From a virus, in the IMG/VR virus record IMGVR_UViG_3300042350_001536, positions 1 through 30,135 of that record: a DNA stretch of 30,135 bases. The stretch is one strand, 5' to 3'. How positions within the stretch are numbered: the first letter of the stretch is position 1; every line of letters begins with the position of its first letter. Below are positions 21-12,512 of the stretch, piece after piece. The translations under genes and the position numbers were made by a program. The notes beneath the pieces are model-generated. The model saw nothing but the letters and a program-made list of their open reading frames with translations. It was not told the origin of the DNA and did not search any database.

Positions 21-1250
21 ATGGAAATAAAGGTTAGTGAAAAGTATGAAGCCCTTTGGCAACCTAAAACCCGTTATTTCCTGATTACTGGGGGGCGTGG
101 TTCGGCAAAGTCATTCACCGTGGGGCTTTGGGCTTGTAACATGCTCCTTGCCAACAAGGGTTGGAAGGTACTTTTCACACGTTATACCTTATCAAGTGCT
201 AACATATCCGTGATTCCTGAGTTCAGGGAAAAGATTGACTTATTAGGCGTGGGCGATGAGTTTCAAATGACCAACGCGCAAATAAGCCACAAGGTCACAG
301 GAAGTGAGATCATCTTTTCAGGTATTAAAACAAGTTCTGGAAACCAGACGGCAAAGTTAAAGTCGATACCAAAGTTAAATGTTTTCATCGTTGACGAGGC
401 TGAGGAGTTTGTAAGCGAAAAGGACTTTGATACCATTGACGAATCAATTCGTATGCCTGACACGCCTAACATTGTTATCCTTGTAATGAACCCTCAAGAC
501 GTGGAACATTGGATTTGGAAGAGGTGGTTTGAAAAGTCACATCGCATGGAAACAATCGACGGGCAAATGGTCCCGATAAGCACGCATGCAGATATAACGC
601 ACATTCATACAACTTACTTTGATAATTACCATAACCTAAGCAAGGATTACATTGCAAAGATTGATGCAATAAAAACAAAGTCACCTGAGGCATACGCGCA
701 TAGATTCTTAGGTAAATGGCTGGATAAGAAACAAGGGGTAATATTTGACAATTGGATTGAGGGGGAGTTCGATGTTAGCCTGCCTTTTGGTTACGGGCTT
801 GACTTCGGCTTCTACCCCGATCCTTTGGCATTGGTGAAAGTGGCGGTTGACAAAGGGGCAAAGAAAATATACGTTGAGGAAGTTATTTACAAACAGTCGC
901 TTTCATACGAGGCAGTCATTGAACAAATGAATCATTACGTTAGCCCCAACGCTATGGTAATTGCGGACACAAGTGAGCCACGGTTAATTGAGGCATTGCA
1001 ACAACGGGGCTTGAATGTTCAAAAGGCTGATAAAGGGGCTGGGTCAATCGTGGAAGGAATTAAGAAAATGTTGGATTATCAAATCATTGTAACTTCTGAG
1101 TCGTATAATCTAAAGCATGAGTTAAGGAATTACATTTGGAACGATAAGAAATCTTCCACGCCTTTAGACGCGGATAATCACGGGTGCGATTCCCTTAGAT
1201 ACATATTTTCAAGACTTGCGCAAGGCAGCGATTTACTTGCATTTAATTAA
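21..1250 (+). CDS. terL: Phage terminase large subunit
   Basis: This is the DNA-packaging motor: an ATPase joined to a nuclease that cuts the concatemer and docks on the portal. The ATPase half shows Walker A GGRGSAKS (residues 24-31) and Walker B VFIVDE (121-126). The nuclease half has an RNase H-like acidic motif GLDFGFYPDP (about 258-267), a second acidic patch at VIADTSEP, and a final Asp in DNHGCDSLRY (D390). At 409 residues it has the normal length for the PBSX-type large terminase. The start follows AAAGG directly. No small terminase is visible; it may lie left of the window edge. The gene opens the late plus-strand block. The family call is secure. Confidence 0.96.
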   Translation: MEIKVSEKYEALWQPKTRYFLITGGRGSAKSFTVGLWACNMLLANKGWKVLFTRYTLSSANISVIPEFREKIDLLGVGDEFQMTNAQISHKVTGSEIIFSGIKTSSGNQTAKLKSIPKLNVFIVDEAEEFVSEKDFDTIDESIRMPDTPNIVILVMNPQDVEHWIWKRWFEKSHRMETIDGQMVPISTHADITHIHTTYFDNYHNLSKDYIAKIDAIKTKSPEAYAHRFLGKWLDKKQGVIFDNWIEGEFDVSLPFGYGLDFGFYPDPLALVKVAVDKGAKKIYVEEVIYKQSLSYEAVIEQMNHYVSPNAMVIADTSEPRLIEALQQRGLNVQKADKGAGSIVEGIKKMLDYQIIVTSESYNLKHELRNYIWNDKKSSTPLDADNHGCDSLRYIFSRLAQGSDLLAFN

Positions 1251-1480: not shown

Positions 1481-1770
1481 CAGATAAAGAAAAGGCGTTA
1501 ATCATCATTGACTTAATCGAAAAGATTACGCAAGAAATCATTGATAAGCCAATGCAGCGCAAAAGGTTATTACAAATGCGTGGACACCTTGAAAAAGCCG
1601 TGAAGCTCACAGGGAACGGAATCAAAAGAGAATGGACACGCCCTCCGTCACTTCCATTGGTTAGCCACGCGAAAGCAGAACCAGTACCTTTTAAACCAGC
1701 AACAACGGAAACCAATGGCGATTTATTAGCTGATAACATTCCTGTAACCAAAAAAGCAAGGAGAAAATAA
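1477..1770 (+). CDS. Hypothetical small basic-tailed phage protein
   Basis: The protein has 97 residues, with a helical N-terminal half and a Pro/Ala-rich C-terminal tail that ends in the basic KKARRK. An in-frame ATG lies upstream at 1444, but the start at 1477 forms a perfect ATGA junction with the preceding stop, so I chose it. The stop overlaps the next start as TAATG. I recognise no family. A disordered basic tail could contact nucleic acid or capsid, but that is a guess. Confidence 0.72.
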   Translation: MTDKEKALIIIDLIEKITQEIIDKPMQRKRLLQMRGHLEKAVKLTGNGIKREWTRPPSLPLVSHAKAEPVPFKPATTETNGDLLADNIPVTKKARRK

Positions 1771-2651
1771 TGGTAATATTTAACATAGGCAACAAACAAA
1801 TAAAGTACAATTATCCCGAAACGGCTTCGGATATTACATTGGAGCAATATATCTACTTTGCGAAGTTCCTTTTGCCTCAGCATCCAAAGGTTGAACTTGA
1901 AGCGATTCAATACATGAATGAACGTGACGCGGTTTATCAAAAGATTTTACCGTATTCAAAGAAGTTGAAGGTAATAACTAAGGATGCTTTACAAATAAAT
2001 GTTGTTTGTGACTTAGGCAAAATATTACAAGAGAATGAAGTCAAAGACAATGTACGTCGTTTCCTTCCGCCTTTGATTGAACAATGGAATACGCTTGACA
2101 AAGAACTTACAACACGGTTGGAAATCATGGACGAGGTCTGGGAAGCAAATGTAAGATACCCATACATGGCAAAGGTGGTAAACTACTTTACAGGCATTCC
2201 TTTAGATGCTTGTTTTGGTAAGGTGGCAGATAGTTTAGAATTAAAATACCTTGTATTCATTTACACTAAGATAATGAGTGCCATTAACACACCAACGGAA
2301 ACAAAGTATAAACAACTGTACGATTTTAACGGCAAGGTTTACACCCTTCCAGAAAGGTTAATGGAAAAATCGACGCTCCTTGAATTTACAATGGCGGCTC
2401 AGTATGACAAGGCAATGAACCAGGTTAAAAACGGTGAGCCTGAGGGATTGCTTAACATCATGGCGGTATTATTAAAACCATTGGGCGAAGATTACAGCGA
2501 TGAACTCTTTGAACAAAACAAGGTTGACTTTTTACAAATGTCGTTACAGACATCGTATGAGGTTGCTTTTTTTTTGACGAAGTTAAGCGAGAAATATATG
2601 TTAGATTTGCAGACCTCTATGTTGGAACGGGCAATGGCAAATCTCAATTAG
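1770..2651 (+). CDS. Phage protein with a -1 frameshift site near its end; possible tail assembly chaperone
   Basis: The zero-frame product has 293 residues, is soluble and mostly helical, and starts MVIFNIGNKQIK. I recognise no named domain. Its key trait lies near the 3' end: codons 267-269 are read through nine T's (2567-2575). A -1 slip there leaves the zero-frame C-terminus and enters an open frame that runs to a TGA at 2849-2851, which overlaps the next start as ATGA. The shifted product would be about 360 residues. This two-product layout is what lambda G/GT-type tail assembly chaperones use, hence the tentative call. The tape measure, however, is about 7 kb downstream rather than adjacent. 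Confidence 0.82.
   Translation: MVIFNIGNKQIKYNYPETASDITLEQYIYFAKFLLPQHPKVELEAIQYMNERDAVYQKILPYSKKLKVITKDALQINVVCDLGKILQENEVKDNVRRFLPPLIEQWNTLDKELTTRLEIMDEVWEANVRYPYMAKVVNYFTGIPLDACFGKVADSLELKYLVFIYTKIMSAINTPTETKYKQLYDFNGKVYTLPERLMEKSTLLEFTMAAQYDKAMNQVKNGEPEGLLNIMAVLLKPLGEDYSDELFEQNKVDFLQMSLQTSYEVAFFLTKLSEKYMLDLQTSMLERAMANLN
2567..2576 (+). promoter_or_regulatory. Slippery site for -1 ribosomal frameshifting
   Basis: Nine T's followed by G are read as gcT TTT TTT TTG in the zero frame, which fits the X XXY YYZ slip pattern twice. The -1 frame has a stop at 2558-2560, only six bases before the run, and is then open to 2851 without an ATG until 2744. I see no obvious strong stem just downstream. 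A homopolymer length error in the assembly would look the same, but would also imply that the downstream 92 codons are real coding sequence. Confidence 0.65.
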
Positions 2652-2851
2652 CAAGTGAACGGCTCAATGAAAAATACGGTTGGTATCTTACAATTAAGAA
2701 AGTGGCGGAGTCAGGATTGTTTAATTTAAGCGGTTATACACCTATGGAATCAGCAGAAAAAGCAAAATTGTATCAAGTCTTTCAATACCTTGCGAGCAAA
2801 GCAGCCGAGGAAAAGGTTATCGATGACCTATCAAAGCAAACAAAGAAATGA
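2573..2851 (+). CDS. -1 frame extension of the 1770 gene (frameshift C-terminus)
   Basis: This frame adds 92 residues after the slip, beginning FDEVKREIYVRFADLY and ending DLSKQTKK. It contains a GTGNGKSQL segment that resembles a loop but not a full P-loop ATPase, followed by helical, charged sequence. It fills the roughly 200 bases between 2651 and 2848 that would otherwise be empty, in a genome where every other late gene abuts its neighbour. Its TGA overlaps the ATG at 2848. There is no suitable independent start: the first ATG in frame is at 2744 and would give only 35 residues. Expression by frameshift is therefore the simplest reading. Confidence 0.7.
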   Translation, partial: FDEVKREIYVRFADLYVGTGNGKSQLASERLNEKYGWYLTIKKVAESGLFNLSGYTPMESAEKAKLYQVFQYLASKAAEEKVIDDLSKQTKK

Positions 2852-4425
2852 ATATACGCGAGATAAGTGACGTTTTCAAAGACACGGCAAACCAAATCAC
2901 GGCGATAAAAAGCTATAATTTCGGTTGGCCGTCGGATCGCACGCGTTCAAGTAACACGGAAGATTATCAAGAGTTAAACGAATTTCCCCGCGTTTTCTTT
3001 TCCGTGCCAACGATTACAGGCTCAGACCAAACAAGGAAGCAAGACACGTATCAAGTTACCATTTTCTTTGATGACTTGCTGGGATATAACAATGAAGGCG
3101 AAGCCGACCTTACCTTGCAATTAGACAAGTGGGCAGCGTTGCAAGAGTATGCAAATTACTTTGTACAAAGGTTGAACAAGGTAAAGCAAACCATTTTACC
3201 GAATTACCTTTTTATTCCTGAGGCGCCTTCCATTACCTTTGATTCCTTCACAGGGTTGCAGCGAATGATTACCGTGCAGCTTAGTTTTACCTTAGTTGTT
3301 CCGACCAACTGTGAGCCCGTTGTTTCTAAGTTAGTAGAATGTATTGCGAACATTGTAACCTCAAGTAATTTAACGGCAGCATTAAAAAACATATTTGAAT
3401 TAACATCAACTTTACAGGCTTCTTCTTCGCTGAGTGCAAATCTGCAATTAACAAGGTTTGCATCATCATCTTTAAACACGGCATCAAGTTTAGCCGCAAG
3501 TGCATTGGTAAGCAAGTTGGCGGCATCATCTTTGACAGGGGCTGGAACATTGGCAGCGGATTTGACGGTGACGGGTTCAGCAACTTTACTTTTGGACTTA
3601 TATCCAAATGCAGCAGCCGCATATTCTTTTCGTAAATTGCGCACGGCTTACACGGGTAATGCGATAAGGGTAAGGAGGTCATCGGATAACACGGAGCAAG
3701 ACATTGGATTTGTATCTGGAAATCTTGATACAGTTTCTTTATTAGCCTTTTGTGGAGTTGGTAATGGCTTTGTAACAACGTGGTACGACCAAAGTGGTAA
3801 TGGAAATAACGCAACACAATCAACGGCTGCAAATCAACCTCAAATAGTAAGTGTTGGCAGTGTTGTTACTGTTCTTGGAAAACCTACACTTCAATTTGAT
3901 GGAAGTAACGATTTTTTATTAGGAACTTCTGCTATCGACCCATTGTTTATTACCGTTGTAAATAAACCTAGTATAACATCACCTTATAAAACAATATTTG
4001 GTGCAGATACAAGCGATCCTGTGGCAGTTGGCAGTATATATTTTATATACGACTCACCGGTAAGAGTACCAGTATTTTCAAGAACTACATTATTGGATAC
4101 AGTTTCGGGAAGTGATTTTTTAGCAAAAGGAACAACGCAATTAACCAATAATACAGTTAATTTATTAACAGGAACAAGAGATAATACTAATATTCAAATT
4201 AGCGTTAATGGAACACAAGTTGGAAGCGATACAACACTATCAAACTTAAGACCAGTTGGCGGAACTAATTCAGGTAGATTTACAATAATGGCTGGTTATT
4301 ATAATAATTCTGTGGGAGATTTTTTAAATGGAAATTTAACAGAATTAATTCTTTATATATCAAATCAATCTTCAAATCGCACAGGCATTGAAACAAACAT
4401 AAACACACACTATGCAATCTATTAA
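2848..4425 (+). CDS. Tail-completion-like protein fused to an arabinofuranosidase-B-like/LamG lectin domain
   Basis: The 525-residue protein has three parts. Residues 1-160 form a compact alpha/beta domain of the size and place of a tail terminator or completion protein. Residues about 165-245 are an Ala/Ser/Leu repeat linker with units such as SSSLSANLQL and SSLAASALV. From about 250 there is the motif set SFRKLR, RVRRSSDN, TWYDQSGNGNNATQ and LQFDGSNDFLLG, which marks the beta-sandwich seen in arabinofuranosidase B catalytic-like and LamG/concanavalin-like domains. In phages this module generally binds surface sugars. The lectin half is visibly more AT-rich than the N-terminal half, suggesting it was acquired. 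Enzymatic activity is not implied. Confidence 0.78.
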   Translation: MNIREISDVFKDTANQITAIKSYNFGWPSDRTRSSNTEDYQELNEFPRVFFSVPTITGSDQTRKQDTYQVTIFFDDLLGYNNEGEADLTLQLDKWAALQEYANYFVQRLNKVKQTILPNYLFIPEAPSITFDSFTGLQRMITVQLSFTLVVPTNCEPVVSKLVECIANIVTSSNLTAALKNIFELTSTLQASSSLSANLQLTRFASSSLNTASSLAASALVSKLAASSLTGAGTLAADLTVTGSATLLLDLYPNAAAAYSFRKLRTAYTGNAIRVRRSSDNTEQDIGFVSGNLDTVSLLAFCGVGNGFVTTWYDQSGNGNNATQSTAANQPQIVSVGSVVTVLGKPTLQFDGSNDFLLGTSAIDPLFITVVNKPSITSPYKTIFGADTSDPVAVGSIYFIYDSPVRVPVFSRTTLLDTVSGSDFLAKGTTQLTNNTVNLLTGTRDNTNIQISVNGTQVGSDTTLSNLRPVGGTNSGRFTIMAGYYNNSVGDFLNGNLTELILYISNQSSNRTGIETNINTHYAIY

Positions 4426-9265: not shown

Positions 9266-9480
9266 TGGAAGATAAACAGGCATTAGGCAAAAAGGTATTT
9301 CTTGAATTTTATTCTTCCTTTATTCTCGATGATGAAATCGAGAAAACGGGGCGCGTGTTTTACCTTGCTCAAAAGGCTTCCATGATTCATTTGAATTTGA
9401 TACGCGGTGTTTTGCAAAACGATGAATATATTATTAATATGGCATACCTCAAAGATGTCATTAATAAAATAAAAATATAA
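9265..9480 (+). CDS. Hypothetical small protein before the tape measure
   Basis: This helical 71-residue protein is joined by TAATG overlaps to both the large tail gene and the tape-measure gene. Its place immediately upstream of the tape measure is where tail assembly chaperones normally lie, so a chaperone role for the tape measure is possible. It shows no slippery sequence of its own and no recognised domain. Confidence 0.72.
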   Translation: MEDKQALGKKVFLEFYSSFILDDEIEKTGRVFYLAQKASMIHLNLIRGVLQNDEYIINMAYLKDVINKIKI

Positions 9481-12400
9481 TGGCAGAAAAGGTAATAGGT
9501 TTTAAAATCCAGATAGAAGGACTTGCTGGAACGATTGAAACGGCAACGCAACTCAAAAGGCAAATCGCTGATATAAATGCCGAGTTAAAAAAGACAGCGG
9601 ACGTTGACGAAATCAAGAAACTTGAAAAGAAGTTAGTTGATTTAAAAGCCGCTCAGTCACTTGTCAATGATGTTACCCGTGAACAAATCAAGTTAAGGAA
9701 GGAAGAAATCGCGGGTATTGACAAAAGCGAAGGGGCTTACCGCCGTTTATCAAAGGAATTAAACGACCAGCGAAAAAGATACAAGGATTTAGCAGCAGCG
9801 GAACAGGCATCAAGTCAGGAGGCAAGGGATTTAATTGTTTCCATTGGACAATTAGATAAGAAATTAAAAGGCATTGATGCAAATGTCGGACAATTTCAAA
9901 GGAACGTCGGCGGTTATACCGAAGCCTTATCAAACTTTTTTCCTAAGTTAAGCGGAACATTAGGACAGGTAACAGGTGCCATCGGTGGAATACAAAACGG
10001 TTTTGCAAATTTAAGCAAGTCCTCAGGCGCTTTGACAACGGGGCTTGGTGGTATTGGTATTGCCTTAACTGCTTTTCAAGCCATTAGTGAAATTGTTGGA
10101 AGTCTTATCGAAGCCGCAAGGGCTACAAAGGAGTTATCTGCTCAGGTTACCAACTTTACACAAATAACAGGCGATGAACTTGAGGCCGTTGTCGCAACAA
10201 GTCAGGCGATAGCGGTTACATACGGTAAGAATGTCGATGACATTGTTGTGGCGGCTAATAGTGCAAGTAAAGCATTAGGTATTTCTTTTGCTCAGGCTTT
10301 GGACGTGGTTGAAATTGGATTCCGAAAAGGTGCGGACGCTCAGGGACAATTTCTTGACGGCTTAAAGCAATATTCTGTTCAATTTCGAGATGCTGGATTA
10401 AGTGCCGAAGATTTTTTAAGGGTATCTATTGCATCGGCAAATGAAGGTATATTTTCAGACAAAGGACTTGACGCGGTAAAGGAATTTGGATTAAGGATTC
10501 AAGAACAAACAAAGGGTTCAAAGGATGCTTTAACCAATGCTTTTGGCGAAGAATTTACAAGTCAGTTATTTGAGAATATAAATAACGGTTCAGTAACATC
10601 GGGTCAGGCTTTTGGATTAGTTACCGATAAAATAACAGAAACAGGGATAGCAGGGTCGCAGCTTCAAACGGTTATTGCTAATGTTTTTGGCGGACCAGGG
10701 GAAGATATTGGAAAAGATTTTTTACTGACATTGGGCGATGTTTTACAAAGTACGGACGATGTAACCTTATCAACCAACCTTTACCAAAAGCAACAAGAAG
10801 AATTATTTAAAGTTAATGAGCAATTAAAAATAAGCGAGGTCGCATATAACACAACCCTTGCAACAACAGGCGTTGAATTTGAGATTGCAACGGCAAAGGG
10901 TAAGATATTTTTAAATAGTGTTTTGTCTGGAATACTTGGATACTTTGAACAAGTGCCAAACCGTTTAAATGCTTATAAAAAAGCCTTCGCAGAATTTACA
11001 AAGCCTGAGGGTTCAATCCTTTCTTTCTTTAAAGTTTTTAATCAGCAGATAAAAGATGGAAACAAGGAAATAAATTTAATAAACAAAGAAGCGTTAATTG
11101 AACAAGAAAAAAACGCAAAAGCACAGGCAGCCGCATCATTAAATACTCAGGCAGGTTTAGAACAAAAGTTATCTGATTTAAGAAAACAAAGAAAGGTTGT
11201 ATTATTTGGCAGCCCTGAATTTAAAAAGTTAGACGTTGAAATTGCTAAAGTTGATGAACAATTAAGGAAATTTAAACCTGATGTTATTGTAACTAAAGCA
11301 GGAACAAAAGCTGGTGAAACAATAGCTAAGTCATTTACCGAAGGTTCAATCGCTGCCTTAGAAAACGAGCGTGGTAAATTACAAAGCGCCTTCTCCAACG
11401 CCGTGGTTGGTTCTGGAACTCAAAAGGAATTGGCGGTAAAATTAAACGCAATTAATAATCAAATCAAAGATGCCGTTGAACAACAAAACCAAATATTAGC
11501 GGATGCCTCAAGGGGTAATTTACTAAATAACTTAAAAAACGCCGAACAACTTGCTACATTGCCATTGACTACAAAGCCTCCAGAATTATTAAAGAAAGAG
11601 GTTGAAGATATTCAAAAGGTTTTTAAAGAGGTGACAAAAAATGCAGATGAATTTAGGAAAGAGCAAAAGGAAAAAGAAGAACAGGATTTAGAAGATAGGG
11701 CTAAAAGGATTGAAACCTATTTGCAAGCCGCCTCATTAGTTACCGATTTCTTTAGCACTATTCAACAGGCAAGATTTAAAAAAGATGCTGATATTTTAAA
11801 TCAGGAAATACAAAAGACCGAGGAAAATATTACACTTCTTGAACAGAAAGCGGAAAAAGCAAGTGGATCAAAAAAGAAAAGGTTACTAAAAGAAATTGAG
11901 GCAGAAAAAGTATTACTCGACGCAAGAACAAAGCAAGCCGAGGAACTTCAACTAAAAGCGGCTAAGGCTGAAAAGAAAATAGCCATTGCCCAATCAATTA
12001 TTCAGGGTGCTTTAGCCGTTAACCGTGCTTTAGCCGTTCCGCCTGGTCCCCCATTTACTATTGGTTCAGCCATTACCGCTGGTGTTTTCGCTGGAATACA
12101 AACCGCGACTATCATAGCCCAGCCCCTTGCGGAAGGTGGCGTCGTAACTGGTGAAAGAATTAACCGTAAACAAAACATTCCCACGCGTTCAAACGGAGAC
12201 AATGTCCTTGCCTACGTTAAACGTGGTGAGGTTGTATTGAATCAACGCCAACAAAGTTTACTTGGCGGATCTCCGACGTTTAGAAAGATTGGTATCAAAG
12301 GTTTTGCCGAAGGTGGTTTAGTTCCTCCAATTTCTGCACCCATTCAAGCCTTATCAGGCAACAATGATTTAAGTAACTTTTTACAAGTGATTGAGGCAAA

Positions 12401-12512
12401 GACGGACGCAATAAATAATCGCATTGACAGGCTTCAAGCCTATGTCGTTTCGGATGACATTGCGCGCGATCTTGCCGAGGGAAATAAACTAAAAGTAAAA
12501 GCAACTTTATAA
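9480..12512 (+). CDS. Tail tape measure protein
   Basis: The protein fixes tail length and is threaded through the tail tube, then released during infection. At 1010 residues it has the expected length. Residues about 20-130 form a heavily charged coiled coil. Residues about 155-215 are Gly/Ala/Ile-rich hydrophobic helices that could enter a membrane. A second long coiled coil covers about 705-830. Near the C-terminus are the typical tape-measure signatures: an Ala-rich hydrophobic helix, then PLAEGGVV and FAEGGLV repeats around RGEVVLNQRQ. The gene starts at a TAATG overlap, and the next gene begins directly after its stop. The call is firm. Confidence 0.94.
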   Translation: MAEKVIGFKIQIEGLAGTIETATQLKRQIADINAELKKTADVDEIKKLEKKLVDLKAAQSLVNDVTREQIKLRKEEIAGIDKSEGAYRRLSKELNDQRKRYKDLAAAEQASSQEARDLIVSIGQLDKKLKGIDANVGQFQRNVGGYTEALSNFFPKLSGTLGQVTGAIGGIQNGFANLSKSSGALTTGLGGIGIALTAFQAISEIVGSLIEAARATKELSAQVTNFTQITGDELEAVVATSQAIAVTYGKNVDDIVVAANSASKALGISFAQALDVVEIGFRKGADAQGQFLDGLKQYSVQFRDAGLSAEDFLRVSIASANEGIFSDKGLDAVKEFGLRIQEQTKGSKDALTNAFGEEFTSQLFENINNGSVTSGQAFGLVTDKITETGIAGSQLQTVIANVFGGPGEDIGKDFLLTLGDVLQSTDDVTLSTNLYQKQQEELFKVNEQLKISEVAYNTTLATTGVEFEIATAKGKIFLNSVLSGILGYFEQVPNRLNAYKKAFAEFTKPEGSILSFFKVFNQQIKDGNKEINLINKEALIEQEKNAKAQAAASLNTQAGLEQKLSDLRKQRKVVLFGSPEFKKLDVEIAKVDEQLRKFKPDVIVTKAGTKAGETIAKSFTEGSIAALENERGKLQSAFSNAVVGSGTQKELAVKLNAINNQIKDAVEQQNQILADASRGNLLNNLKNAEQLATLPLTTKPPELLKKEVEDIQKVFKEVTKNADEFRKEQKEKEEQDLEDRAKRIETYLQAASLVTDFFSTIQQARFKKDADILNQEIQKTEENITLLEQKAEKASGSKKKRLLKEIEAEKVLLDARTKQAEELQLKAAKAEKKIAIAQSIIQGALAVNRALAVPPGPPFTIGSAITAGVFAGIQTATIIAQPLAEGGVVTGERINRKQNIPTRSNGDNVLAYVKRGEVVLNQRQQSLLGGSPTFRKIGIKGFAEGGLVPPISAPIQALSGNNDLSNFLQVIEAKTDAINNRIDRLQAYVVSDDIARDLAEGNKLKVKATL

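Follow-up and report, generated by a model that had tools for sequence, protein, structure and literature searches.

Among the best conserved devices of tailed phages is G/GT frameshifting, which is assumed to act through the ribosome. In lambda, a zero-frame protein and a longer -1 fusion arise from overlapping ORFs in the tail region, with a mixed heptamer as the slip site, and such pairs are recognized by a -1 shift late in the first ORF and by a location directly upstream of the tape measure; further marks are kinship in sequence or fold to known chaperones, binding to the tape-measure and major tail proteins, and absence from the virion. Conserved slip sites of about nine A or T residues are known from Shigella spa13 and mxiE (with extended products), Thermus dnaX (A9) and IS elements, and slippage in spa13 produces a C-terminal extension ending over the start of the next gene (PMC5009743). 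In many bacteria, A/T runs begin to be avoided because of slippage once they reach nine (PMC1088944). We found no description of transcriptional slippage for a phage tail chaperone in the searchable literature; here we propose it for a run of nine T's (T9) in a phage gene. The reading we prefer, with a probability of roughly 0.6, is that RNA polymerase slippage at T9 yields a 360-residue fusion and, with it, a G/GT-like chaperone pair.

The window, that is, the whole stretch of DNA analysed, comprises positions 1-30,135 of the IMG/VR virus record IMGVR_UViG_3300042350_001536 (30,135 nucleotides), and its relatives reach about 40 kb. The features needed for the comparison are as follows.

21..1250, + strand: terminase large subunit (TerL), from PHROG and Pfam matches.
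1770..2651, + strand: zero-frame gene of 293 aa, proposed as the short form of a G-like tail-assembly chaperone, from direct reading and homologs.
2561..2851, + strand: open region of the -1 frame, conserved at the protein level, with dS above dN; its codons from 2573/2576 onward make up an extension of 91-92 codons.
2567..2575, + strand: T9, the putative recoding (slip) site, containing U_UUU_UUU (2567-2573) and U_UUU_UUG (2570-2576); exactly nine T's in all relatives, the wobble T invariant.
2575..2577, + strand: TGA of the +1 frame, which after one U lost or two gained would give a third, truncated product of slipped mRNA.
2576..2651, + strand: apparently dual-coded overlap, reading FFLTKLSE..DLQTSML in the zero frame and DEVKRE..RFADLY in the -1 frame.
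2848..2851, + strand: ATGA overlap of the next gene's start with the -1 frame stop, from the sequence.
9480..12512, + strand: tape-measure protein, from tblastn matches (E to 6e-46) with tape-measure proteins annotated in Elizabethkingia and Bacteroides phages.

Around T9 the zero-frame register is GCT TTT TTT TTG ACG. In the -1 frame, a TGA at 2558-2560 lies six bases before T9 and the terminal TGA (2849-2851) overlaps the ATG of the next gene (2848-2850), just as the sequence-only reading had described; the frame between them is open, as it also held, with a length of 96 codons (2561-2848) instead of the 97 it had counted. The computed -1 fusion has 360 aa (268 zero-frame codons plus 92), and an mRNA with ten U's would encode the identical protein. 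The +1 frame meets a stop within two to three codons in all 54 distinct regions compared below. The recoded gene lies close downstream of TerL, as it does in the Nonlabens phage P12024L. Directly behind it, at 2848-4425, stands a gene for a 525-aa protein whose C-terminal part has stretches resembling arabinofuranosidase and laminin G.

Two protein searches of IMG/VR yielded about 60 contigs and profile searches more, giving 217 locus entries which, many being duplicate copies of the same contigs, represent 54 distinct regions of 600 nt. Exactly nine T's in the same register were present in 217 of 217 entries (54 of 54 distinct regions), and the zero-frame stop after T9 and the open -1 frame recurred in all 54 regions, in every more distant one found later and in both cultured Nonlabens phages, P12024L and P12024S. 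An alignment of relatives, proposed earlier as a check on the run and the frame, thus found both conserved throughout. T9 is also found in L156 and L158, two loci at which the zero-frame protein has only about 30% identity to that of the window, and in all members of the later clades L276-L292, L297/L298 and L356/L357 from searches with distant members; L356/L357 were retrieved via the zero-frame protein and not via the extension. Homologs of the zero-frame protein reach down to 27-31% identity with it, and that of P12024L shares 21%. As about two such runs per 30 kb per strand are expected by chance in DNA of this composition, the evidence lies in the conservation of T9 and not in its occurrence.

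The codon that leads into the run is GCT, GGT or TCT, and the first T of T9 is therefore the wobble base of a four-fold codon, invariant in the 54 regions; elsewhere in the same gene, only 17% of Ala, 22% of Gly and 12% of four-fold Ser codons end in T. Both TTT codons of T9 are likewise invariant, whereas, over the 390 nt upstream, all 11 four-fold and all 3 Phe control columns vary among the same 54 sequences, for which the third-position tree length is about 15.7 substitutions per site. Given that homopolymers invite errors and that several loci stem from metagenomic assembly, it might be suspected that replication-slippage phase variation or a sequencing artefact is at work and that the true run is variable or, with eight or ten T's, forms one ORF. 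Relatives with eight or ten T's, or with one continuous ORF, were looked for and not found; the run showed zero length variants among all contigs, which come from many studies, and in the two isolate genomes, so that sequencing error or a pseudogene is rejected. The zero-frame tail is itself conserved, and we consider a variable or artefactual run hardly credible.

Past the overlap, dS-like values in the -1 extension are 0.25-0.70 against dN-like values of 0.01-0.24, with the changes in third positions. Within the overlap, as dual coding would predict, changes are spread evenly across codon positions and both frames show fewer synonymous changes; an AAGCGA block is invariant. These comparisons indicate that the site is under selection, that both frames are coding, and that purifying selection acts on the zero-frame tail as well as on the -1 extension. 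AlphaFold modelled the zero-frame protein with a pLDDT of 80.7, and its fold matches in BFVD (best E 1.9e-8) are all unnamed phage proteins, including I6R9M9 of P12024S; the extension modelled alone folded poorly (pLDDT 63.5), without a PDB match.

Upstream of the core KYGWYLTIKK motif, the -1 frame has no conserved start codon, and fusion is thus the only conserved route to the -1 segment. The annotators of P12024L called a separate 55-aa gene at a TAATG, which would fit a -1 segment expressed by re-initiation or from its own start. However, TAATG is absent from the window, the only conserved -1 starts are TTG at codons 40 and 50, inside the core domain, and conservation of the -1 frame starts right at T9, upstream of the P12024L ATG; a separate gene is therefore very improbable. 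Since T9, the zero-frame stop and both frames are conserved, T9 is almost certainly a programmed recoding site of some kind, from which a short product of 293 aa and a -1 fusion of 360 aa would be made. The programmed -1 shift that the sequence-only reading had suggested is in this sense strongly supported by the comparative data, and T9 would have been kept in all relatives because slippage gives one gene both a short and a longer, differently ended protein.

A profile of the extension (A3) matched P12024L (E 6e-5), and P12024L and P12024S both carry a homologous gene pair directly behind TerL, with T9 and a -1 open frame. These features are shared with the window, whereas the codon register differs and the zero-frame protein of the Nonlabens phages has 175 aa. 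In the first gene of P12024L, T9 is read as CTT TTT TTT TAT, is followed by A, and the extension lies in the -1 frame; P12024S and an environmental relative (L242) carry this gene pair and T9 as well. The fold predicted for the window also matches a P12024S protein (E 1.7e-4), although this match is not fully independent because P12024L was in the input alignment. In the current annotation, genes _40/_41 of P12024L (JQ823123; L237:19206-19900) and genes _38/_39 of P12024S (JQ823122; L243:2567-3261) are listed as two unrelated hypothetical proteins (phrog_32199 and phrog_38404), which is why the fusion is missing from databases; from their sequences, each pair seems to be one T9 recoded gene split in two, and the annotation of these cultured relatives is corrected accordingly.

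The sequence-only reading had taken the ribosome to be the slipping machine, which the data do not establish. We favour RNA polymerase slippage as the somewhat likelier mechanism, on evidence that is not decisive. T9 is a conserved, uninterrupted T run of nine, the approximate length from which transcriptional slippage is expected, and its length stays constant although the register and the 3' base change in P12024L and P12024S. In addition, long runs are avoided in the other coding sequence of the same genomes: when coding regions of the window and related loci, which are related and not independent genomes, were compared with synonymous-codon shuffles, A/T runs of eight were about four times rarer than expected (6 seen, 26.4 expected) and runs of at least nine besides the T9 site numbered 2 against 7.4 expected, with runs of seven near expectation. 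This depletion could instead stem from replication slippage, and several T's of the run are constrained as well by the amino acids encoded in the two frames.

Classical -1 programmed ribosomal frameshifting, by tandem tRNA slippage on U_UUU_UUU or U_UUU_UUG of an unaltered mRNA, would give the same 360-aa fusion. Both heptamers stand in the zero-frame register as X_XXY_YYZ, re-pairing in the P site would need the conserved wobble T, and G/GT frameshifting of long-tailed phages is known as ribosomal (PMC5009743). As any T9 contains U_UUU_UUU in register, conservation cannot separate polymerase from ribosome. A ribosomal slip, however, needs only seven T's, whereas nine are always kept, even in a different register. 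The downstream stimulatory RNA structure that is usual, if not obligatory, did not appear as a conserved element (RNAalifold -1.6 kcal/mol without compensatory pairs; z-scores 0.5 to -1.75). The GAGG upstream is missing from some clades and is only 4 nt from T9, and Shine-Dalgarno sequences are seldom used in Bacteroidota (PMC8710568). Taken together, ribosomal frameshifting is a serious but less probable explanation.

Under polymerase slippage, most mRNAs would be translated to the 293-aa zero-frame protein, and a minor share would give the fusion with its final 91-92 residues from the -1 frame. RNA polymerase most likely slips on the nine-base U:A hybrid, so that one U is gained (or two are lost); the longer mRNA would then be translated normally into the fusion, and mRNAs short of one U would run into an immediate stop. 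The short and long forms would probably serve as a tail-assembly chaperone pair of the G/GT kind, in which the shared part would bind the tape measure, the extension would recruit tail-tube subunits, and slip frequency would set the ratio of the two forms. We infer fusion production, this ratio, the chaperone role and the polymerase as the slipping machine from the comparisons above.

A chaperone role for the T9 pair is probable by analogy of layout. As in lambda G/GT, the pair consists of a zero-frame protein and a longer -1 fusion from overlapping ORFs, the putative shift falls close to where the first ORF ends, the pair lies in the tail region, and the arrangement is widely conserved. The recoded genes sit in the packaging and tail block, in which this was the only overlapping pair of its kind to be noticed. 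In contrast to lambda G/GT, the T9 pair has a homopolymer and a first ORF of 293 aa, and it stands behind the terminase gene with the tape measure 6.6 kb downstream in the same gene block and several genes between, a distance already pointed out in the earlier reading. Clear homology to lambda G, in sequence or fold, was not found, the recoded gene matched neither a PDB structure nor, strongly, a named family, and its links with known chaperones are weak (Phage_TAC_8, E 0.12 for one member; a TAC fold match to ctRiO19, E 0.45, probability 0.77). Because of this position and these links, we do not file the pair as a member of the G/GT chaperone family; the likeness to lambda G/GT first proposed from the sequence alone holds for the layout, and for function by analogy only. 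In Flavobacterium phage 6H, a related frameshift was considered from a fold match (E 0.015) and rejected, as neither a slip site nor a match to the extension profile was found. Elizabethkingia phage TCUEAP1 (L238, MN732896) shares the gene order of the window (TerL ... about 820 aa, about 80 aa, tape measure, protease, capsid, portal) and has no recognisable recoded pair; a single-ORF equivalent there was not supported.

An equally strict homopolymer was observed in an unrelated tail-chaperone family of Bacteroidota phages, phrog_8914, which is annotated as a chaperone and sits just before the tape-measure gene in Elizabethkingia phage TCUEAP2, Bacteroides phage BKO1-3 and relatives.

L234:11439-11448, L235:12247-12256, L244-L266 and L269-L273: A10 run of the phrog_8914 gene, about 131 codons in.

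All IMG/VR relatives that cover the site (23 of 23; 46-97% identity) have A10 at this one position, and L268 has A9; the isolates B40-8, B124-14, P2559Y and PD691P4 have A10, and BF486P2 has A9. The family extends over phages of Bacteroides, Parabacteroides, Elizabethkingia and Croceibacter. Most of its shifted frames run into a stop only a few codons on, which makes for a truncating design like that of dnaX. No homology between the T9 pair and this family was detectable, so that A10 would represent convergence, and its strictness suggests a recurring strategy. It is conceivable, though we hold it tentatively, that Bacteroidota phages set the ratio of chaperone forms by polymerase slippage on length-conserved homopolymers, a device evolved at least twice (T9 extending, A10 truncating) in place of a lambda-like ribosomal frameshift. 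The exact T9, kept over very wide divergence and in a phylum that rarely uses Shine-Dalgarno signals, offers a clean natural experiment on whether polymerase slippage can take the place of the G/GT ribosomal frameshift.

TerL of the window is closest to phages of Riemerella and Nonlabens, and its tape measure to phages of Elizabethkingia and Bacteroides, so that the host most likely belongs to Bacteroidota; scans of bacterial genomes found no prophage relatives. Among the TerL matches, the record OQ791282, named Shigella phage Henu10, agrees in coordinates and identity with Riemerella phage vB_RanS_PT15, and its host label may be wrong.
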